A stretch of 64,000 nucleotides of DNA from NCBI RefSeq assembly GCF_030064895.1, contig NZ_JASJEB010000013.1, positions 1 through 64,000 of the forward strand. Reading direction: 5' to 3'. Shown here piece by piece: positions 26,567 through 58,540 of the stretch. The notes under the pieces were generated by a model. It was not told where the DNA came from, made no database searches, and saw only the letters and a program-made list of their open reading frames with translations. The position numbers were made by a program, and so were the translations under genes. Source of the DNA: Crocosphaera sp. Lineage in GTDB: Bacteria; Cyanobacteriota; Cyanobacteriia; Cyanobacteriales; Microcystaceae. Position 1 is the first letter of the stretch. The number at the start of each line of letters is the position of its first letter.

Positions 26567-26638
26567 CCCCCCCTCTCCCCCTCTCCCCGTCTCCCCCTCT
26601 CCCCGTCTCCCCGTCTCCCCCTCTCCCCGTCTCCCCGT
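26567..26638. repeat. Octamer tract CTCCCC(C/G)T
   Basis: About nine tandem octamers of CTCCCCCT and CTCCCCGT lie between the DUF3685 and ftsH genes. The tract is pyrimidine-only on the plus strand apart from the G positions, in sharp contrast to the AT-rich surroundings. Confidence 0.9.
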
Positions 26639-26764
26639 CAAACTCCAAAGATGATTTGTCCATAAAAATAAGATACTCCCAAATTATCCCTGAGAGACTC
26701 CCCTAGATACTGCTTAATGGTTCATAATAAAAGTAAAGAGTAATTTTTTAACAACAGACTGGTT

Positions 26765-28710: not shown

Positions 28711-28776
28711 TTAAGGGAACAGGCAACAGGCAACAGGCAACAGAAAAATGTCCTAATAGCCTTAGCCACTGCTATA
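28711..28776 (-). mobile_element. Partial MITE-like element, inverted
   Basis: Read on the minus strand it has the left end TATAGCAGTGGCTAAG, then GCTATTAGGACATTTTT and CTGTTGCC-type heptamers (three CTGTTGC and one CTGTTCC). The right arm of the full element is missing. It faces the complete copy at 28900-29009. Confidence 0.7.
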
Positions 28777-28817
28777 TGTATTGTATGATACTAACTTCGA
28801 GATTAGTACCCCCTTTT

Positions 28818-28845
28818 GTAGAGACGTTGCATGCAACGTCTCTAC
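28818..28845. repeat. 28-bp perfect palindrome
   Basis: GTAGAGACGTTGCA joined directly to its reverse complement, with no loop. This palindrome is dispersed in many cyanobacterial genomes. It lies between the two inverted MITE copies. Confidence 0.9.
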
Positions 28846-28899
28846 GGGGTTTTAGATGGAATAGATAAGCGGATTTTGTATTACACGGTAGTTTGACAG

Positions 28900-29009
28900 T
28901 TATAGCAGTCGCCAAAGCTATTAGGACATTTTTCTGTTCCCTGTTCCCTGTTCCCTGTTCCCTTAAAATATAATTTATGTGTCCTAACTAGCCTGTCTAT
29001 TGCTATATA
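28900..29009. mobile_element. MITE-like element, copy 2 (identical to copy 1)
   Basis: Base-for-base identical to 2746-2855 over 110 positions, with the same inverted ends and four-unit CTGTTCC core. Identity across 26 kb implies recent duplication or strong conversion. It encodes no protein. Confidence 0.85.
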
Positions 29010-29393: not shown

Positions 29394-30014
29394 ATGATTA
29401 GTTACGAAAAGCTTTTCATTTATTCTGTAATTCCTTTTGTCTTAATAGGTGCCTTTTTGGTTAATGCTATGACTAATAAGGAAGAAGATTCTGTTTCGAC
29501 TGCTACAAAAGAAGGCATAACCTTTACTTGTGAACAAGACGAATATAACGGTCAAATGGTTCCTGCAACTGTAGTTAATAAACCGAAGTCACAAACACAA
29601 ACAACGATTATTTCCTGGAAACCTGAGAATTATTATTTTGGGGAAAAATGGAGTCCAGAAGAACGTTGTAAGGAGGTTGCTAAACGGTTTCAAAGAATAC
29701 ATAATCGTGATGGTTTAAAATATGTTGTTGCGGAAGTAGATACTTGGGTTCCTGATAGAGATGTTAATGTAGTTTGTGCAGTTAAAAATGAAAATGCTGT
29801 TTGTAATGAAGATGATTTATTGTTTACTTTAGAAGGAAAAGATAATCCTAATGAGGTGTTAAGAGATTTGATTAATCGTCGTCAGTTTCCTAGTAAAGAA
29901 CCTGTGTTAGTTAGAGGAGAAAAAAAACCAGAAACTTTTGCAGAAGGTAAACGAGTTTATTATGATATGTCTGAAATTCTTATTGATGAAGAATCAGAAG
30001 AACCTGCTTTTTAG
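29394..30014 (+). CDS. COP23 family protein
   Basis: A 206-residue protein of the COP23 (circadian oscillating polypeptide) family, first described as a rhythmic membrane-associated protein in Cyanothece/Synechococcus RF-1. It has an N-terminal anchor or signal (residues about 7-26) and four conserved cysteines in TFTCEQDEYN, EERCKEVAKRF, NVVCAVKN and NAVCNEDD, which probably form disulfides. RRQFPSKEP near the end is also characteristic. Its molecular role is unknown. It lies upstream of a CHAT gene, with an IVP gene and repeats between. Confidence 0.85.
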   Translation: MISYEKLFIYSVIPFVLIGAFLVNAMTNKEEDSVSTATKEGITFTCEQDEYNGQMVPATVVNKPKSQTQTTIISWKPENYYFGEKWSPEERCKEVAKRFQRIHNRDGLKYVVAEVDTWVPDRDVNVVCAVKNENAVCNEDDLLFTLEGKDNPNEVLRDLINRRQFPSKEPVLVRGEKKPETFAEGKRVYYDMSEILIDEESEEPAF

Positions 30015-30023
30015 ATTTTTAGA

Positions 30024-30112
30024 GGGAACAGGGAACAGGCAACAGGCAACAGTTGGAGTTTATTATGGCTTATTTTTCAGAAAGGCAACGGGGAACGGGG
30101 AACAGGCAACAG
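30024..30112. repeat. Left heptamer tracts of the first IVP gene
   Basis: Two tracts of four units, GGGAACA/GGCAACA at 30024-30051 and GGCAACG/GGGAACG/GGGAACA/GGCAACA at 30084-30111, lie between the COP23 stop codon and the IVP start. Their orientation is opposite to the tract that follows the IVP gene. Confidence 0.92.
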
Positions 30113-30124
30113 TCAGAGTATCTT

Positions 30125-30487
30125 ATGTCTGAAGTTAGGGATTTTAAGGATCTGAAAGTATGGCAAAAAGGTATGATTATTGCTGAAAAATGTTATGTTC
30201 TAACACAAAAATTTCCTAAAGAAGAAATTTATGGTATGGTTCAACAAATTAGGCGATCAGCAACTTCTATTCCTGCTAATATTGCGGAAGGTTATGGGAG
30301 AAGATCAACAGGAGATTATGTAAGATTTTTGAATATTGCTCAAGGTTCTATCAATGAATTAGAAACTCATCTTATTTTATCCGCAAGAGTCAATCTATGT
30401 AATTTTAATGATATAGAATCAATTATTGATGAAATTAAGCAGGAAAGCAGAATGATTATTTCTCTTATCAAGAAGTTGAAATCATAA
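30125..30487 (+). CDS. Four-helix-bundle protein (23S rRNA IVP / S23 type)
   Basis: A 120-residue protein of the intervening-sequence-protein family, named for proteins coded within 23S rRNA insertions of Leptospira and others. The hallmarks are VWQKGMIIAEKCYVLT, RRSATSIPANIAEGYGRRSTGDY and FLNIAQGSINELETHL. These form pentameric basic bundles; the same fold serves as Avd in diversity-generating retroelements. The biochemical role is unknown. The start chosen is the ATG giving MSEVRDF; a longer frame would translate the repeats. It is bracketed by opposite heptamer tracts. Confidence 0.88.
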   Translation: MSEVRDFKDLKVWQKGMIIAEKCYVLTQKFPKEEIYGMVQQIRRSATSIPANIAEGYGRRSTGDYVRFLNIAQGSINELETHLILSARVNLCNFNDIESIIDEIKQESRMIISLIKKLKS

Positions 30488-30491
30488 AATT

Positions 30492-30514
30492 CTGTTCCCT
30501 GTTCCCTGTTCCCT
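30492..30514. repeat. Right heptamer tract of the first IVP gene
   Basis: Three CTGTTCC units begin five bases after the IVP stop codon. They are the reverse complement of the GGGAACA type on the left side, so the gene sits inside an inverted repeat. The unit is the one found in the core of the two 110-bp elements. Confidence 0.92.
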
Positions 30515-30551
30515 CTTGCCTCTATCAACCATTATCTAATTACTATTAATC

Positions 30552-32825
30552 ATGAAATTATCTCAATTAGCAACAGCAGCAGTTATTACTTTAGCTTCTA
30601 TATTTTCTAATCCTATAGAGACTATAACTCAGAAAAAGTTGACTATTTCTTCAGCTTCAGCGCAGGCAACTTATCAAGAATCAAGAATAGAAATAACAGA
30701 AAATACACCAGTAAATGAAATCAATCATTTTTTCTTTATGATAGAGAACTTATGGAGCTATAATGTATATGTTTCTGAATCAGATAAGAAAAATCTAATA
30801 GAAGATTTGGAAAAAATTGAAGCTATAACAAAATATCACGATGAATATCGTTGGGATAGTATATGTCAAGTTTATCTTATTGCTGAAGCTTATGATAAAG
30901 CTGTCAAAGCTTGTGAAAAAGATTTAGAATCTGGAGAAATACCAAATCCGTGGCATTCAATACACCAAGCTTATATTGCAACCAAACAATATGATAAAGC
31001 AATGAATTCTCTTACAAAAAGTATTAATAATGATGATAAAAATAATCAGGAACAAGACCCTTTTATTCATAAACTTATTGGAGATGTTTATTTTTCGTTG
31101 GGTAACTATAATAAAGCTATTAAAAACTATAAAGAACCAATAGATTCCTTAATAAATGCCAGAGAAGAAAAACAAAATGATGGGAGTTTAATTGCATTAA
31201 TCCAATCAAATCTTGGATTAGCATTATTAAGAGAAGGAAAAGAAAGTGAAGCAGAGAATTTGTTTCTAGAAGCTATGAAAAATGATCAAATATATTGGAA
31301 TTATGAGCTAGACGGCCTTAGTATGTATGGTAATGAATTGGGTGGACTTTGGGAAGGATATGTATTAGGACAAATTCAGGGAATATTCCCTCAAGGATTA
31401 ACAGAATTAAGAATTAAACAAAACAACTATACAGATGCTTTAGCGTTTGCCGAATATGGACGTACTCGCACTCTTTCTTATTACATCAGTCGTAATACAG
31501 AATCATCTATAAGCATTGATGAAATTAAAGATATTGCCAAAGAACAAAACGCAACATTAATCAAATACTTTACACCTACAAGTATCGATTTTGGTTATGC
31601 CGCAATACCTCAAGAATACGAACCCAAAGTATATATCTGGGTAGTTAAACCAACGGGGGAAGTTCACTTTGCTAACGTTAACCTCAACCCAAAAGAATCA
31701 GTTTCTGCTGCTAATATTCCTGTTATTCCTATCCTTATACTCGTCATCGGTACAGGTTTAACCGTATATTTCCTTCGTAACCGAAAACCCTATTTAATTG
31801 CAGGACTAACCCTAACAGCTATTGCAACAGCAACAACCCTCTTTATACACCAAAATAATCCCGTCGCTACCAACGTTAACTATAATATTGATGGTTCCAT
31901 TGCCGATCTTTCTAATAATACCTTTGCCACAGTTAGAGGAAGAAACAGCCAAGAAGTTACCGAAAACTTAAAAGAAGGAACCTGTCATAAAGATGACGAC
32001 TGTTTACAACAACTGCACAAAATATTAATCGATCCTATCGCTCAACATTTACCCAGCAACCCAGAAGAAGAAATAGTTATTATTCCAGACGGGGAACTCT
32101 TTAAAGTTCCTTTTGCTGCACTAAAAAATAACAATAATCAATACCTGATTGAAAACCATACCCTGAGAGTTGCACCTTCCATTCAATTATTAAAATTTAC
32201 CGCACAACAACAAGCTAAACAAACCCCTAAAAATTTTAAAACAGCCTTAATTGTTGGCAACCCAGAAATGCCTAGAGGTAACAATAATCAACCTCTTGAT
32301 CCCTTACCCGGAACCGAAGAAGAAGCTTATGCGATCGCCGAATTATTGGATACAACTCCCCTTATTGGAGAAAATGCAACCGAATGGCTAATTAAAAATA
32401 ATATAGAATATGCAGACATCATCCACTTTGCAACTCATGGAGATCCCACAAGCTTAGTTTTTGCCTCTTCCAGCAGCAATGATGGCTTTTTACGGGACGG
32501 AGAAATTTACGGTTTGGATCTACAAGCAGAATTAGTGGTTTTAAGCGCGTGTGAGACAGGTTTAGGAGAAATCACCAGTGATGGTATTGTCGGCATTTCT
32601 CGTCCCTTCATCGCTGCTGGAGTCCCCAGTGTGGTCATGTCTTTATGGTTAGTTCCCGATGCAGCAACCTCTGAATTAATGATTGACTTTCATAAGAACC
32701 TGCAAACAGGACAAAACAAAGCCCAAGCATTACGCCAAGCCATGTTAAGCACCATGAAAACCAACCCCGAACCGGTTAACTGGGCCGGTTTTATTCTTGT
32801 CGGGGAGTCTGATCCTATTCAGTGA
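30552..32825 (+). CDS. CHAT-domain protease-like protein with TPR repeats
   Basis: A 757-residue exported or membrane-bound CHAT (caspase-like) protein. A signal-like segment ends near SASAQA (residue 39). TPR-like repeats fill residues about 85-250. The CHAT domain at the C-terminus has the catalytic pair His629 (HFATHGD) and Cys667 (LSACETG). Unusually, two membrane helices (residues about 388-433) sit just before the CHAT core, after the strand VWVVKPTGEVHF. Substrate is unknown; bacterial CHAT proteins often act as proteases in signalling or defence. The COP23 gene upstream may be functionally linked. Confidence 0.85.
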   Translation: MKLSQLATAAVITLASIFSNPIETITQKKLTISSASAQATYQESRIEITENTPVNEINHFFFMIENLWSYNVYVSESDKKNLIEDLEKIEAITKYHDEYRWDSICQVYLIAEAYDKAVKACEKDLESGEIPNPWHSIHQAYIATKQYDKAMNSLTKSINNDDKNNQEQDPFIHKLIGDVYFSLGNYNKAIKNYKEPIDSLINAREEKQNDGSLIALIQSNLGLALLREGKESEAENLFLEAMKNDQIYWNYELDGLSMYGNELGGLWEGYVLGQIQGIFPQGLTELRIKQNNYTDALAFAEYGRTRTLSYYISRNTESSISIDEIKDIAKEQNATLIKYFTPTSIDFGYAAIPQEYEPKVYIWVVKPTGEVHFANVNLNPKESVSAANIPVIPILILVIGTGLTVYFLRNRKPYLIAGLTLTAIATATTLFIHQNNPVATNVNYNIDGSIADLSNNTFATVRGRNSQEVTENLKEGTCHKDDDCLQQLHKILIDPIAQHLPSNPEEEIVIIPDGELFKVPFAALKNNNNQYLIENHTLRVAPSIQLLKFTAQQQAKQTPKNFKTALIVGNPEMPRGNNNQPLDPLPGTEEEAYAIAELLDTTPLIGENATEWLIKNNIEYADIIHFATHGDPTSLVFASSSSNDGFLRDGEIYGLDLQAELVVLSACETGLGEITSDGIVGISRPFIAAGVPSVVMSLWLVPDAATSELMIDFHKNLQTGQNKAQALRQAMLSTMKTNPEPVNWAGFILVGESDPIQ

Positions 32826-44031: not shown

Positions 44032-45069
44032 ATGAGTTCTATGAATCAATATTTATCCCTAGTCCATGGCCTTCGTTCAAAAGCATCTTTACAACGTATT
44101 TTCATTACTGCTTTCACTTTTTTAAGTGCGATCGCTTGTAGTCCAGAAACAACTCCACCAACAAGTTCTGATCCTACACCAGAAACAAGTTCTGGTCCCA
44201 AGATTGTCACTACTTTTTTACCAGTTCATTTGTTTACTAAAGCTGTAGTAGGAGAGACGGGACAAGTAGATATTTTGATTTCCCCTGGGAACGAAGTTCA
44301 CGACTATCAAGCGACCCCAGAAGATGCAAAATTGTTAGCACAAGCCGATGTTTTAGTAGAAAACGGTTTGGGGATGGAAGCGTTTTTATCAGATTTAGTT
44401 GCCAATGCAGGTAATTCTGAACTTCAGCAAATTGATTCTAGTAAAGGAATAGAAGCAATGGACGGGGAGCATGGACATGATGAACATGGACATGATGAAC
44501 ATGGACATGATGAACACAAACATGATGAACACAAACATGATGAACATGGACATCACCATCCAGAGGGAAATCCTCACGTTTGGTTAGATCCTGTTTTAGC
44601 GCAACAACAGGTAGCGAATATTAGAGATAGGTTAATTGAAATCGACCCCGATAATGCAGATAGCTATCGTAGCAATGCTCAAGCTTATATTGAACAACTA
44701 CAACAGCTAGACAGTGAATTTAAAGAAAAATTAGCCCCCGTTCAAGGTTGTAACTTTATTACTTTTCACGATGCTTTTCCCTATCTAGCACAACGCTACG
44801 GACTGGAACAAGAAGCAATAGTGGAAATTCCTGAAGAGAGCATTACTCCCCAAAATATCCAACGGATAAAACAAATAACTGAGGAACATTCTGTTAAAGC
44901 TTTATTAACTGAACCAGGAATTAAAGACAAACGGGTTGAGCAAATATCCAGTGACTTAAATCTATCTCTCGAAGAAATCAACCCTCTTGAGGCAGGAGAA
45001 ACAGATCCACAATATTATTTTGTAGCGATGCAAGGTAATTTGGAAGCGTTATTAAGAGCGTGTCAGTAA
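44032..45069 (+). CDS. znuA: Zinc ABC transporter substrate-binding lipoprotein ZnuA
   Basis: A 345-residue zinc-binding lipoprotein of cluster 9. The lipobox ends at SAIAC. The metal ligands include the histidine in HDYQ, the loop before NPHVWLDP, and ITFHDAF. A histidine-aspartate-rich loop, built from five-residue repeats of HGHDE/HKHDE, spans the middle; on DNA this is a 15-base tandem repeat at about 44467-44555. It captures zinc outside the membrane for ZnuB. The ATG start is chosen over an upstream TTG. Zur boxes lie 30 bases upstream. Confidence 0.92.
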   Translation: MSSMNQYLSLVHGLRSKASLQRIFITAFTFLSAIACSPETTPPTSSDPTPETSSGPKIVTTFLPVHLFTKAVVGETGQVDILISPGNEVHDYQATPEDAKLLAQADVLVENGLGMEAFLSDLVANAGNSELQQIDSSKGIEAMDGEHGHDEHGHDEHGHDEHKHDEHKHDEHGHHHPEGNPHVWLDPVLAQQQVANIRDRLIEIDPDNADSYRSNAQAYIEQLQQLDSEFKEKLAPVQGCNFITFHDAFPYLAQRYGLEQEAIVEIPEESITPQNIQRIKQITEEHSVKALLTEPGIKDKRVEQISSDLNLSLEEINPLEAGETDPQYYFVAMQGNLEALLRACQ

Positions 45070-45070
45070 A

Positions 45071-45112
45071 CATTTATCATTGAACATTGAACATTGAACA
45101 TTTATCATTGAA
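45071..45112. repeat. Left heptamer tract of the second IVP gene
   Basis: Six heptamers (CATTTAT, CATTGAA three times, CATTTAT, CATTGAA) begin two bases after the znuA stop. They are oriented opposite to the tract after the IVP gene. Confidence 0.93.
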
Positions 45113-45142
45113 CAATAAATACTGATAAATGGAAAATACTAA

Positions 45143-45505
45143 ATGTTAAATGAAAAAAATGTTACCTACGATAAGGCTTATAAATTCGCCATCAGAATTC
45201 TTAATGCCTACAAATATTTACAAGAAGATAAGAAGGAGTTTGTTTTGTCCAAACAATTATTAAGAAGCGGTACATCTATCGGAGCAAATATTGCAGAAGC
45301 GAATGGCGGAATTTCTCCAGCAGATTTCTCAGCAAAAATATCTATCGCTTATAAAGAAACCCTAGAAACAAAATACTGGCTTTCTCTACTCAAAGATACA
45401 GACTACATCGACGAAAAATCATTCAGCAGCATACATCAAGATGCCGATGAAATAGCCAAAATACTCTTTTCTATTCTGAAAAACTCCAGAATCAAAAAAC
45501 AGTGA
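45143..45505 (+). CDS. Four-helix-bundle protein (IVP / S23 type), inside znu operon
   Basis: A 120-residue relative of the 23S rRNA intervening-sequence proteins. RNA- or protein-binding four-helix hallmarks are KAYKFAIRILNAYKYL, LRSGTSIGANIAEANGG and FSAKISIAYKETLETKYWLSLL. It is paralogous in family, though not close in sequence, to the gene at 30125. It splits znuA from znuC, and is bracketed by heptamer tracts of opposite orientation, which suggests the gene and its flanks entered together. It has no plausible role in zinc uptake. Confidence 0.88.
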   Translation: MLNEKNVTYDKAYKFAIRILNAYKYLQEDKKEFVLSKQLLRSGTSIGANIAEANGGISPADFSAKISIAYKETLETKYWLSLLKDTDYIDEKSFSSIHQDADEIAKILFSILKNSRIKKQ

Positions 45506-45514
45506 ACATTAAAC

Positions 45515-45549
45515 ATAAATGATAAATGTTAAATGCTCAATGATAAATG
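45515..45549. repeat. Right heptamer tract of the second IVP gene
   Basis: Five heptamers (ATAAATG, ATAAATG, TTAAATG, CTCAATG, ATAAATG) are the reverse complement of CATTTAT-type units on the left. The last unit supplies the znuC ATG. Confidence 0.92.
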
Positions 45550-46323
45550 ATGAATGATACCATTGTTACAGTCAAAAATCTATCGGTAATGCGTGGGGAA
45601 TATCTAGCAGTAGATAATGTGTCTTTTGAATTATTGCCAGGTACTCATACTGCCATTATTGGTCCAAATGGTGCAGGGAAAAGTACCTTGATTAAATCTA
45701 TTTTAGGGTTGCTTGAAGCGCAGTCAGGTGAAATTAGCTTTTTTGATAGTAATGGTAAACGGTTAAAGCGATTAAAACAGGAAATTGGTTATATTCCCCA
45801 AAAGTTTCCCTTTGAGCGCACTTTTCCGCTAATAGTATCAGAGTTAGTTGGTTTAGGCTTAAATAGCAAATACTGGTGGTGCGATCGTAAACGTAAACGA
45901 GAGATTATCTACCAAGCTTTAGAAAAAGTTCATCTAACCAAACAAGCAAACCAAAAAATCGGGACTCTTAGCGGAGGGGAGTTAAAGCGAGTTTTATTAG
46001 CTTACTGTTTAGTAGTTCCCCGTCGTCTTTTAATTCTCGATGAAGCTTTAGCCGGGGTAGATGCGACAGGAGAAATGGAATTTGCTGCTTTACTTAATAG
46101 TCTCAAAAAAGAACAAAACTGGACAATATTGGAAGTTTCCCACGATTTAGATTTAGTTAGTCGCTATTGTGACTCAGTAATTTGTTTAAACCGTCGCTTA
46201 CTTTATCAAGGTTCCCCTAAAACCACTCTCACTGCCGAAAATCTCTTGCACATATACGGTGCTTTAGTCAGTCCTACTTGTCATCATCATAATGAATCTA
46301 GTCAACTTCCTGAATCTTTTTAG
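45547..46323 (+). CDS. znuC: Zinc ABC transporter ATPase ZnuC
   Basis: A 258-residue ABC ATPase. Walker A GPNGAGKST, Q-loop GYIPQKF, signature LSGGELKRV and Walker B LLILDEALAG are present, with the H-loop VSHDLDLV. The end carries a histidine-rich TCHHHNES. It drives ZnuB. The ATG coincides with the edge of the IVP right repeat; another ATG follows at once. It overlaps znuB by 32 bases. Confidence 0.94.
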   Translation: MMNDTIVTVKNLSVMRGEYLAVDNVSFELLPGTHTAIIGPNGAGKSTLIKSILGLLEAQSGEISFFDSNGKRLKRLKQEIGYIPQKFPFERTFPLIVSELVGLGLNSKYWWCDRKRKREIIYQALEKVHLTKQANQKIGTLSGGELKRVLLAYCLVVPRRLLILDEALAGVDATGEMEFAALLNSLKKEQNWTILEVSHDLDLVSRYCDSVICLNRRLLYQGSPKTTLTAENLLHIYGALVSPTCHHHNESSQLPESF

Positions 46324-57942: not shown

Positions 57943-58011
57943 TTACAATAATTTAAAATCCAGAAAATTTATAAAAAGTTCTGGTAAAGACAAGTCATAG
58001 CTAGAAAAAAA

Positions 58012-58534
58012 TCAGGTTTTCAACTGTTGCGCTTTAGTACGAGTTCCGAAAATAAAGGCGATCGCTAACCAAAAATCAGATGTTCAACTGTTGCGCTTTA
58101 GTAACGGTTCCGAAAATAGAGGCGATCGCTATCAGAAAAATTAGGTTATTAACTGTTGCGCTTTAGTACGAGTTCTCAAAATAGAGGCGATCGCTAACAA
58201 AAAATCAGATGTTTAACTGTTGCGCATTAGTAATGGTTCCGAAAATAAATGCGATCGCCAACAAAAAAATCAGGTTTTCAACTGTTGCGCATTAGTAACG
58301 GTTCCGAAAATAAATGCGATCGCTATCAGAAAAATCAGGTTTTCAACTGTTGCGCATTAGTAACGGTTCTCAAAATAGAGGCGATCGCTAACAAAAAAAT
58401 CAGATGTTTAACTGTTGCGCATTAGTAAAAGTTCTCAAAATAGAGGCGATCGCTATCAGAAAAATCAGGTTTATAACTGTTGCGCATTAGTAAAAGTTCT
58501 CAAAATAGAGGCGATCGCTAACGAAAAAATTACG
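58012..58534. repeat. Eight-unit 64-65 bp tandem array with HIP1 sites
   Basis: Eight units, marked by AACTGTTGCGC at 58022, 58086, 58151, 58215, 58280, 58345, 58410 and 58475, are spaced 64-65 bases. Each unit contains one GCGATCGC octamer (a single change in the fourth) and AACTGTT facing a variable AACGGTT, AAAAGTT or ACGAGTT. Unit length is not divisible by three, so it is not a protein repeat. Units alternate between two subtypes. Confidence 0.95.
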
Positions 58535-58540
58535 TTTAAC

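Follow-up and report, generated by a model that had tools for sequence, protein, structure and literature searches.

Inverted arrays of short tandem repeats bracket free-standing IVP genes in many bacterial phyla and may delimit a small mobile element

In the window, the whole stretch of 64,000 nucleotides of Crocosphaera sp. DNA analyzed here, a small four-helix-bundle gene stands between a COP23-domain gene and a TPR-CHAT gene with heptamer tracts on either side, and the locus raises the question of what kind of unit the gene and its repeats form. Genes of this family (IVP, S23, or "four helix bundle") are common, with at least 589 found by one peptide pattern at one genome per species, and they have no known function. 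We know of no accepted origin either for rRNA intervening sequences (IVSs) or for the heptamer repeats of cyanobacteria. The Coxiella IVS is described as having terminal inverted repeats that form a 28-bp stem and GACAGAT heptamers that precede the S23/IVP open reading frame (ORF), and the sporadic distribution of IVSs is taken there as horizontal transfer (PMC4990558). For CPR bacteria, IVP genes are reported in inserts of both 16S and 23S rRNA (PMC11270868). The initial annotation of the window held that heptamer tracts in opposite orientation bracket the gene, that this looks like a free-standing version of the rRNA IVS architecture, and that it is possibly a mobile cassette.

The bracket is confirmed from the sequence, with the tracts at 30023-30112 repeated in opposite orientation at 30492-30523 (Table 1). 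The gene starts with the ATG at 30125 (other in-frame starts lie at 30065 and 30053) and stops at 30485-30487. The first CTGTTCC unit, at 30492, lies four bases past the stop, and the 3' arm continues into CTTGCCTCT, the complement of AGGCAAG, ending at 30523.

Table 1 Features of the two IVP cassettes of the window and the genes adjoining the first
Feature	Position	Strand	Description
COP23-domain gene, upstream neighbor (host flank)	29394..30014	+	PF14218, 94.6 bits
First cassette, 5' arm, outer array	30023..30052	+	Heptamers GGGAACA x2, GGCAACA x2; AGGGAACAGGGAACAGGCAACAGGCAACAG
First cassette, 5' arm, inner array	30084..30112	+	GGCAACG/GGGAACG/GGGAACA/GGCAACA; GGCAACGGGGAACGGGGAACAGGCAACAG
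First cassette, IVP (four-helix-bundle) gene	30125..30487	+	120 aa; PF05635, TIGR02436 and PDB 2gsc matches
First cassette, 3' arm, inverted array copy	30492..30523	-	CTGTTCC x3, then CTTGCCT
TPR-CHAT gene, downstream neighbor (host flank)	30552..32825	+	PF12770, 241.1 bits
Second cassette, 5' arm	45069..45114	+	AACATTG/AACATTT units
Second cassette, IVP gene	45143..45505	+	PF05635, 106.3 bits; presence/absence in relatives
Second cassette, 3' arm	45515..45559	-	Inverted units

The encoded protein matches PF05635 (131 bits, cut-off 33.8) and TIGR02436 (128.7 bits, cut-off 24), and by sequence the PDB entries 2gsc (E 3.4e-24) and 2rld (E 2.2e-9), which comprise five chains each. In the Pfam profile search PF05635 was the only match, with no Y1/HUH, DDE, or other known transposase domain. 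The profile search found no known catalytic domain in IVP, which counts against reading the gene as part of a mobile cassette and makes the autonomy of any such element putative. Among pairs of IVP genes (58 computable of 91), the median dN/dS is 0.135, which shows purifying selection on the protein. IVP resembles the Avd proteins of diversity-generating retroelements (DGRs) in that the profiles PF22296 (bAvd) and PF05635 cross-match, and a structural likeness between the two proteins is reported (PMC10053308).

The host genome (5.5 Mb) contains six PF05635 matches, five of them above the cut-off, and inverted repeats were seen by eye at all five. The second gene of the window has the same build as the first and a different unit. 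The automatic inverted-repeat test misses two of the five, L004, which has an internal stop, and L005, which is broken by an insert. The sixth match (L006, on contig C39), below the cut-off, is the Avd of a DGR made up of a sulfatase-modifying-factor-like ORF (identified by eye), the Avd itself (NF033474, 137 bits), and a reverse transcriptase. This Avd adjoins the reverse transcriptase and lacks bracketing arrays (inverted score 19), and is therefore a useful negative control. In contrast, IVP cassettes contain no reverse transcriptase, and the window protein matches only PF05635 and has COP23 and CHAT genes as its two neighbors.

Several further repeats were noted in the same genome. The IVP gene of L005 is interrupted by a MITE-like copy of about 110 bases, and the locus abuts a Y1-transposase fragment. 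A MITE-like sequence (TATAGCAATAGACAGGCTAGTTAGGACA ... TATTAGGACATTTTTCTG) with GGGAACA heptamers occurs at window positions 28740-29000 and at L005:900-1030. Beyond their heptamers, L003 and L005 carry an additional outer inverted sequence (CGCCCTTCGG ... CCGAAGGG/CAAAGGGCG) that may represent a longer terminal repeat. Elsewhere in the window are a 65-bp tandem repeat of about eight copies that contains GCGATCGC (58005-58537), a 15-bp tandem repeat CATGGACATGATGAA that is His/Met/Asp-rich if translated in that frame (44470-44553), and an 8-bp array (CCCCGTCT, 8.9 copies) with no adjoining IVP gene (26569-26639).

The bracket was scored for each ORF by aligning its upstream flank locally to its reverse-complemented downstream flank. 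In a blind ranking of 288 ORFs from 368 kb of the host genome (the window together with up to 20 kb from the start of each of 20 other contigs), the two IVP genes known in this sequence (frames 45143 and 30053) took ranks 1 and 2, and rank 3 fell to the neighboring COP23 ORF, which has the same arrays on its 3' side. In a related, array-rich genome (G034; 362 ORFs in 400 contiguous kb), the three IVP genes ranked 3, 4, and 8, the last tied. Two non-IVP ORFs of G034, L276 (G034:C1:1577989-1578504) and L274 (1539580-1540344), outscore the IVP genes of this stretch, with scores of 60 and 56, respectively. Over the 77 scorable of 78 cyanobacterial loci, the median inverted score was 38, versus 17 for mismatched flanks (paired across different loci) and 18 for the direct orientation; a few loci (L010, L026, and L051) have direct rather than inverted repeats. 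Among the other IVP genes of the genus, most have paired inverted heptamers by eye, as the initial annotation would have it, with exceptions such as L010, L013, L016, L024, and L025.

The bracket extends well beyond cyanobacteria. A second collection, the named set, consists of the best 80 of at least 589 loci matching one peptide pattern, at one genome per species, and so leans to one IVP subfamily; 79 of its loci could be scored. Their titles name cyanobacteria, Bacteroidetes, Acidobacteria, alphaproteobacteria, Planctomycetes, Nitrospirae, Clostridia, Patescibacteria, Chloroflexi, and Methanophagales archaea. Inverted scores of at least 26 were reached by 56 of the 79 loci versus 2 of 79 neighboring control ORFs, by 7 of 79 when the same flanks were compared in direct orientation, and by 3.8% of 6162 mismatched flank pairs. 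Tested against dinucleotide shuffles of both flanks, 43 of the 65 cyanobacterial loci and 52 of the 76 named ones scored at p<=0.01, the archaeal locus L127 among those passing. About a third failed this strict test (22 of 65 and 24 of 76), which counts against the mobile-cassette reading. An independent set of viral contigs (31 with IVP, of which 8 were dropped as duplicates) gave 17 of 23 loci at or above 26, where the direct orientation gave 4 of 23 and mismatched pairs 4.0%; no IVP match was found in annotated phages. Overall, at least some two thirds of the sampled IVP genes have the inverted bracket, in many bacterial phyla and one archaeon. That it arises by chance or from gene calling, as low-complexity intergenic DNA beside a small ORF, is scarcely credible: the flanks are indeed repetitive and the strict test is failed by about one locus in three, but the dinucleotide shuffles, mismatched pairs, neighboring ORFs, and two blind rankings refute this account, and the bracket recurs in the third collection, the viral contigs.

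These counts depend on some choices of sample. Start codons were set by rule, so that genes that are broken or split (L004, L005, L013, L020, L024-L026, L029, and L030 among them) score as misses, and some of these have arms by eye. L018 and the other archaeal locus, L150, were omitted where their flanks were too short. The Avd locus L006 was kept in the cyanobacterial flank scores, the count of G:U versus A:C mismatches, and the orientation count, and left out of the period, unit-versus-protein, dN/dS, arm-count, dispersed-array, and shuffle tests. Fourteen near-duplicate loci were dropped from the 142-locus G:U count, the unit-versus-protein comparison, the shuffle test, and the arm counts. 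Near-duplicates were retained in the flank scores, orientations, periods, and dN/dS pairs, and those counts therefore include near-copies (in the named set, L120 and L132 resemble L116).

The arms are built alike, and their units vary from locus to locus. Judged against mononucleotide shuffles, the 5' arm is periodic in 118 of 155 loci (near-copies included), with a period of 7 in 88 loci, 8 in 25, 9 in 4, and 12 in one. Both arms are periodic in 91 loci and share the same period in 87 of these. The median number of units is 4.4 in the 5' arm and 4.5 in the 3' arm. Upstream arms are rich in G (34%) and A (32%) and poor in C (10%), and no universal unit motif was seen by eye over all loci. The two arms of a locus also agree in the kind of unit, though in L017 and L039 the unit differs between them. 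Similar proteins tend to have similar units: the mean of shared 5-mers is 0.21 above 70% protein identity and 0.02 below 35%, and the Mantel correlation of unit and protein likeness over 110 loci is 0.105, a value matched by 10 of 2000 permutations.

Comparison of related genomes shows these loci both with and without the gene. In a related genus, 9 of 12 genomes have a clean empty site in place of L034, where the flanks join with an overlap of 3-5 bases and had no array; the filled site has about 517 extra bases. A tenth genome has a remnant lacking most of the gene, and an eleventh has a rearranged copy. The L041 element is found at two sites as copies of about 495 bases that are 94-95% identical, with the homology ending within the arms, and the second of these sites is filled in 6 of 12 genomes. 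A search of 49 genomes for the second cassette of the window found both flanks but no IVP gene in 7, and in one genome (G007) most of the gene is deleted while the arms are retained. At L003, the cassette has taken the place of about 230 bases in a reverse-transcriptase gene, which is a whole ORF of 352 amino acids in G001 and is uninterrupted at the DNA level in G005. No firm target-site duplication was seen: the flanks overlap by 3-5 bases at one empty site, and at this other insertion about 230 bp of target are lost.

At the COP23-CHAT locus itself, no empty site was found among nine genomes of the genus. The COP23 flank is present in only two of them, the host genome (G000) and G008; other genera have distant homologs of COP23. 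The latter also has an IVP gene on the same contig, about 2.5 kb from the COP23 flank, and the end of a group II intron (RF00029; L009, 1791-1868) lies between its COP23 gene and the IVP cassette.

The empty site, the one element at two sites, and the presence and absence of the second cassette support the view that the IVP cassette would be mobile as a family, as the initial annotation had suggested for this copy; each individual change may be a gain or a loss. Flanks without the gene do exist, in the form of an empty site, and so do not refute this reading. However, at both L041 sites IVP-less alleles retain arrays (three genomes were read per site), which indicates that gene and arms are not always gained or lost together and argues against a simple cut-and-paste picture.

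The cassettes tend to be inserted in the sense direction between closely spaced genes. Taking the longest nearby ORF as the neighbor, both neighbors are co-directional with IVP in 60 of 74 callable loci of the named set and both opposite in 3, whereas the cyanobacterial loci show a less marked preference, at 39 and 15 of 67, respectively; a callable neighbor was missing at 6 of 80 named and 11 of 78 cyanobacterial loci. The median distances to the called neighbors in the named set are 58 and 48 bases, so that the arms nearly fill the intergenic space. In Bosea, the order is nuoC-[IVP]-nuoD, and a Rhizobiaceae locus (L099) has the same unit, GGCAGTC, apparently in the same nuoC-nuoD place. Two strains of Flavobacterium columnare are described as having a four helix bundle gene between the genes for guanylate kinase and nicotinate-nucleotide adenylyltransferase, within regions termed phage elements (PMC5524665); this gene is probably another cassette among housekeeping genes. 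An Rfam scan of 40 of the 158 loci, including the window locus (L001), gave no match to an rRNA family, and the sole known RNA in these loci was one group II intron.

The bracket might instead act as RNA, as in rRNA IVSs, with the arms pairing in the transcript, RNase III cutting, and selection keeping the stem; the gene may then be secondary, and the inverted arms would render insertions into operons harmless. The sense orientation of the named cassettes, with three antisense, favors such a role, as does the excision by RNase III reported for the Coxiella IVS (PMC4990558). None of 100 dinucleotide shuffles folds as well as the window cassette itself (z -3.57), although the same would hold for any inverted repeat. 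However, upkeep of an RNA stem would tolerate G:U pairs and not A:C mismatches, and the arms have no excess of the former: over the 109 loci used of 142, there are 142 G:U and 159 A:C mismatches, and restricting the count to the 43 cleanest arms leaves 20 and 29. By the same measure, the acceptor stems of 15 tRNAs have 11 G:U and no A:C. The arms therefore look like DNA-level repeats, and their upkeep as an RNA stem is not supported by this comparison with the tRNA control, with the proviso that register shifts within arrays could mask part of a G:U signal. The arms of one locus may differ in unit, and the cyanobacterial cassettes antisense to both neighbors likewise speak against a role in the transcript. 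We consider this RNA-level explanation rather unlikely, and the sense orientation is best read as a putative need for expression by read-through.

Arrays of the same kind are also scattered elsewhere in the genomes, which raises the possibility that IVP is a passenger: heptamer arrays would multiply by themselves, and the gene would be dropped in when arrays with a common unit recombine. In one genus, the L041 arm array is matched more than 100 times among the matches listed, some of them overlapping within one array. In G034, 39 of 65 dispersed arrays match the arm units of three of its IVP genes, which none of 2000 random sets drawn from other genomes reached. These observations, together with the IVP-less alleles that keep arrays, fit a passenger gene. 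On the other hand, the bracket is rare around other genes, the repeats of the named loci are mostly inverted and seldom direct, and the one clean empty site carried no array. Array density discriminates poorly between the two directions. In up to 40 kb from each of 20 cyanobacterial genomes, the median density was 12.5 arrays per 100 kb in the ten that have at least two IVP genes versus 1.25 in the ten that have none (one-sided p 0.033). One genome without IVP has many arrays (G070) and one with three IVP genes has none (G102), and this weak difference does not decide whether arrays derive from IVP cassettes or IVP genes enter arrays. Taken together, the passenger explanation appears improbable. 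In the surveyed part of the host genome, GGGAACA is the commonest unit (12 of 38 dispersed 7-bp arrays). Descent of the dispersed arrays of this genome from its own IVP arms was not significant, since 18 of 38 match own arms and 759 of 2000 random sets equal that number.

The COP23-CHAT cassette of the window is probably an example of a small mobile element of about 0.5 kb that is widespread. The element would consist of about four to five tandem units (7, 8, or sometimes 9 bp) as its 5' arm, a single IVP gene, and a 3' arm with units of the same kind inverted, the arms being its putative ends. IVP, a relative of Avd that is predicted to be pentameric from solved relatives, may recognize the units of the arrays, most probably in the form of DNA, and may bring them to an enzyme supplied in trans, which would be a reverse transcriptase or else a nicking or recombination enzyme of the host. 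A sense position inside operons would permit expression of IVP by read-through. The IVSs of rRNA would then be the same element landed in rRNA, as a special case, and part of the dispersed heptamer arrays of cyanobacteria (STRRs) would be solo arms or copies without IVP. Further points that weigh against this reading are the direct repeats of a few loci, the two higher-scoring non-IVP ORFs of G034, the lack of a firm target-site duplication, the failure to find an empty COP23-CHAT site in the genus, and the less marked sense preference in cyanobacteria. It is possible, though we would not call it likely, that this is a new kind of element, in which the inverted ends of 7-9 bp arrays are read by a ring of five IVP subunits, one unit per subunit, in keeping with the median of 4.4-4.5 units per arm, and the unit is remade with divergence, seeding arrays across the genome. 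If true, one mechanism would explain both the STRR heptamers of cyanobacteria and the rRNA intervening sequences.

The element shares features with several known systems. The rRNA IVSs of Coxiella, Leptospira, and CPR bacteria have the same protein family and inverted terminal repeats around an IVP ORF, and the likeness of the Coxiella inverted repeats and heptamers to the inverted heptamer arrays found here supports the proposed free-standing version of the IVS architecture. Unlike the IVSs, the window cassette lies between COP23 and CHAT genes and another lies inside a reverse-transcriptase gene rather than in rRNA, and the free-standing arms are inverted 7-9 bp arrays with a locus-specific unit. 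IVP genes in rRNA inserts are already known, and what is new here is free-standing IVP genes within inverted arrays, for which no description was found in the open-licence PubMed Central literature. In REPtrons, which combine REP elements with a RAYT transposase, a gene is likewise bracketed by inverted short repeats, and relatives of these repeats are dispersed in the genome; for the IVP arms, a link to dispersed arrays is strong in G034 and not significant in the host genome. However, REP elements are single palindromes, whereas IVP cassettes have tandem arrays, several kinds of unit per genome, and a protein without a Y1/HUH domain. Classical insertion sequences differ in that no DDE or other known transposase gene is present in the cassette. 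STRRs are tandem 7-bp units of cyanobacteria, described as gene-free arrays; tandem heptamers dispersed in this way are found in the window genome, and the inverted pairing around IVP and the presence in many phyla are added here.

If the cassette moves by means of its own gene, its size of about 0.5 kb would place it, to our knowledge, among the smallest such units. The finding also bears on functional assignments by guilt of association: cas loci are reported to contain IVP genes, in one instance between cmr3 and cmr2 (PMC3936711), and these genes may simply be cassettes that landed there. A single architecture that joins IVP genes, rRNA intervening sequences, and the heptamer repeats of cyanobacteria would make their function and origin testable.
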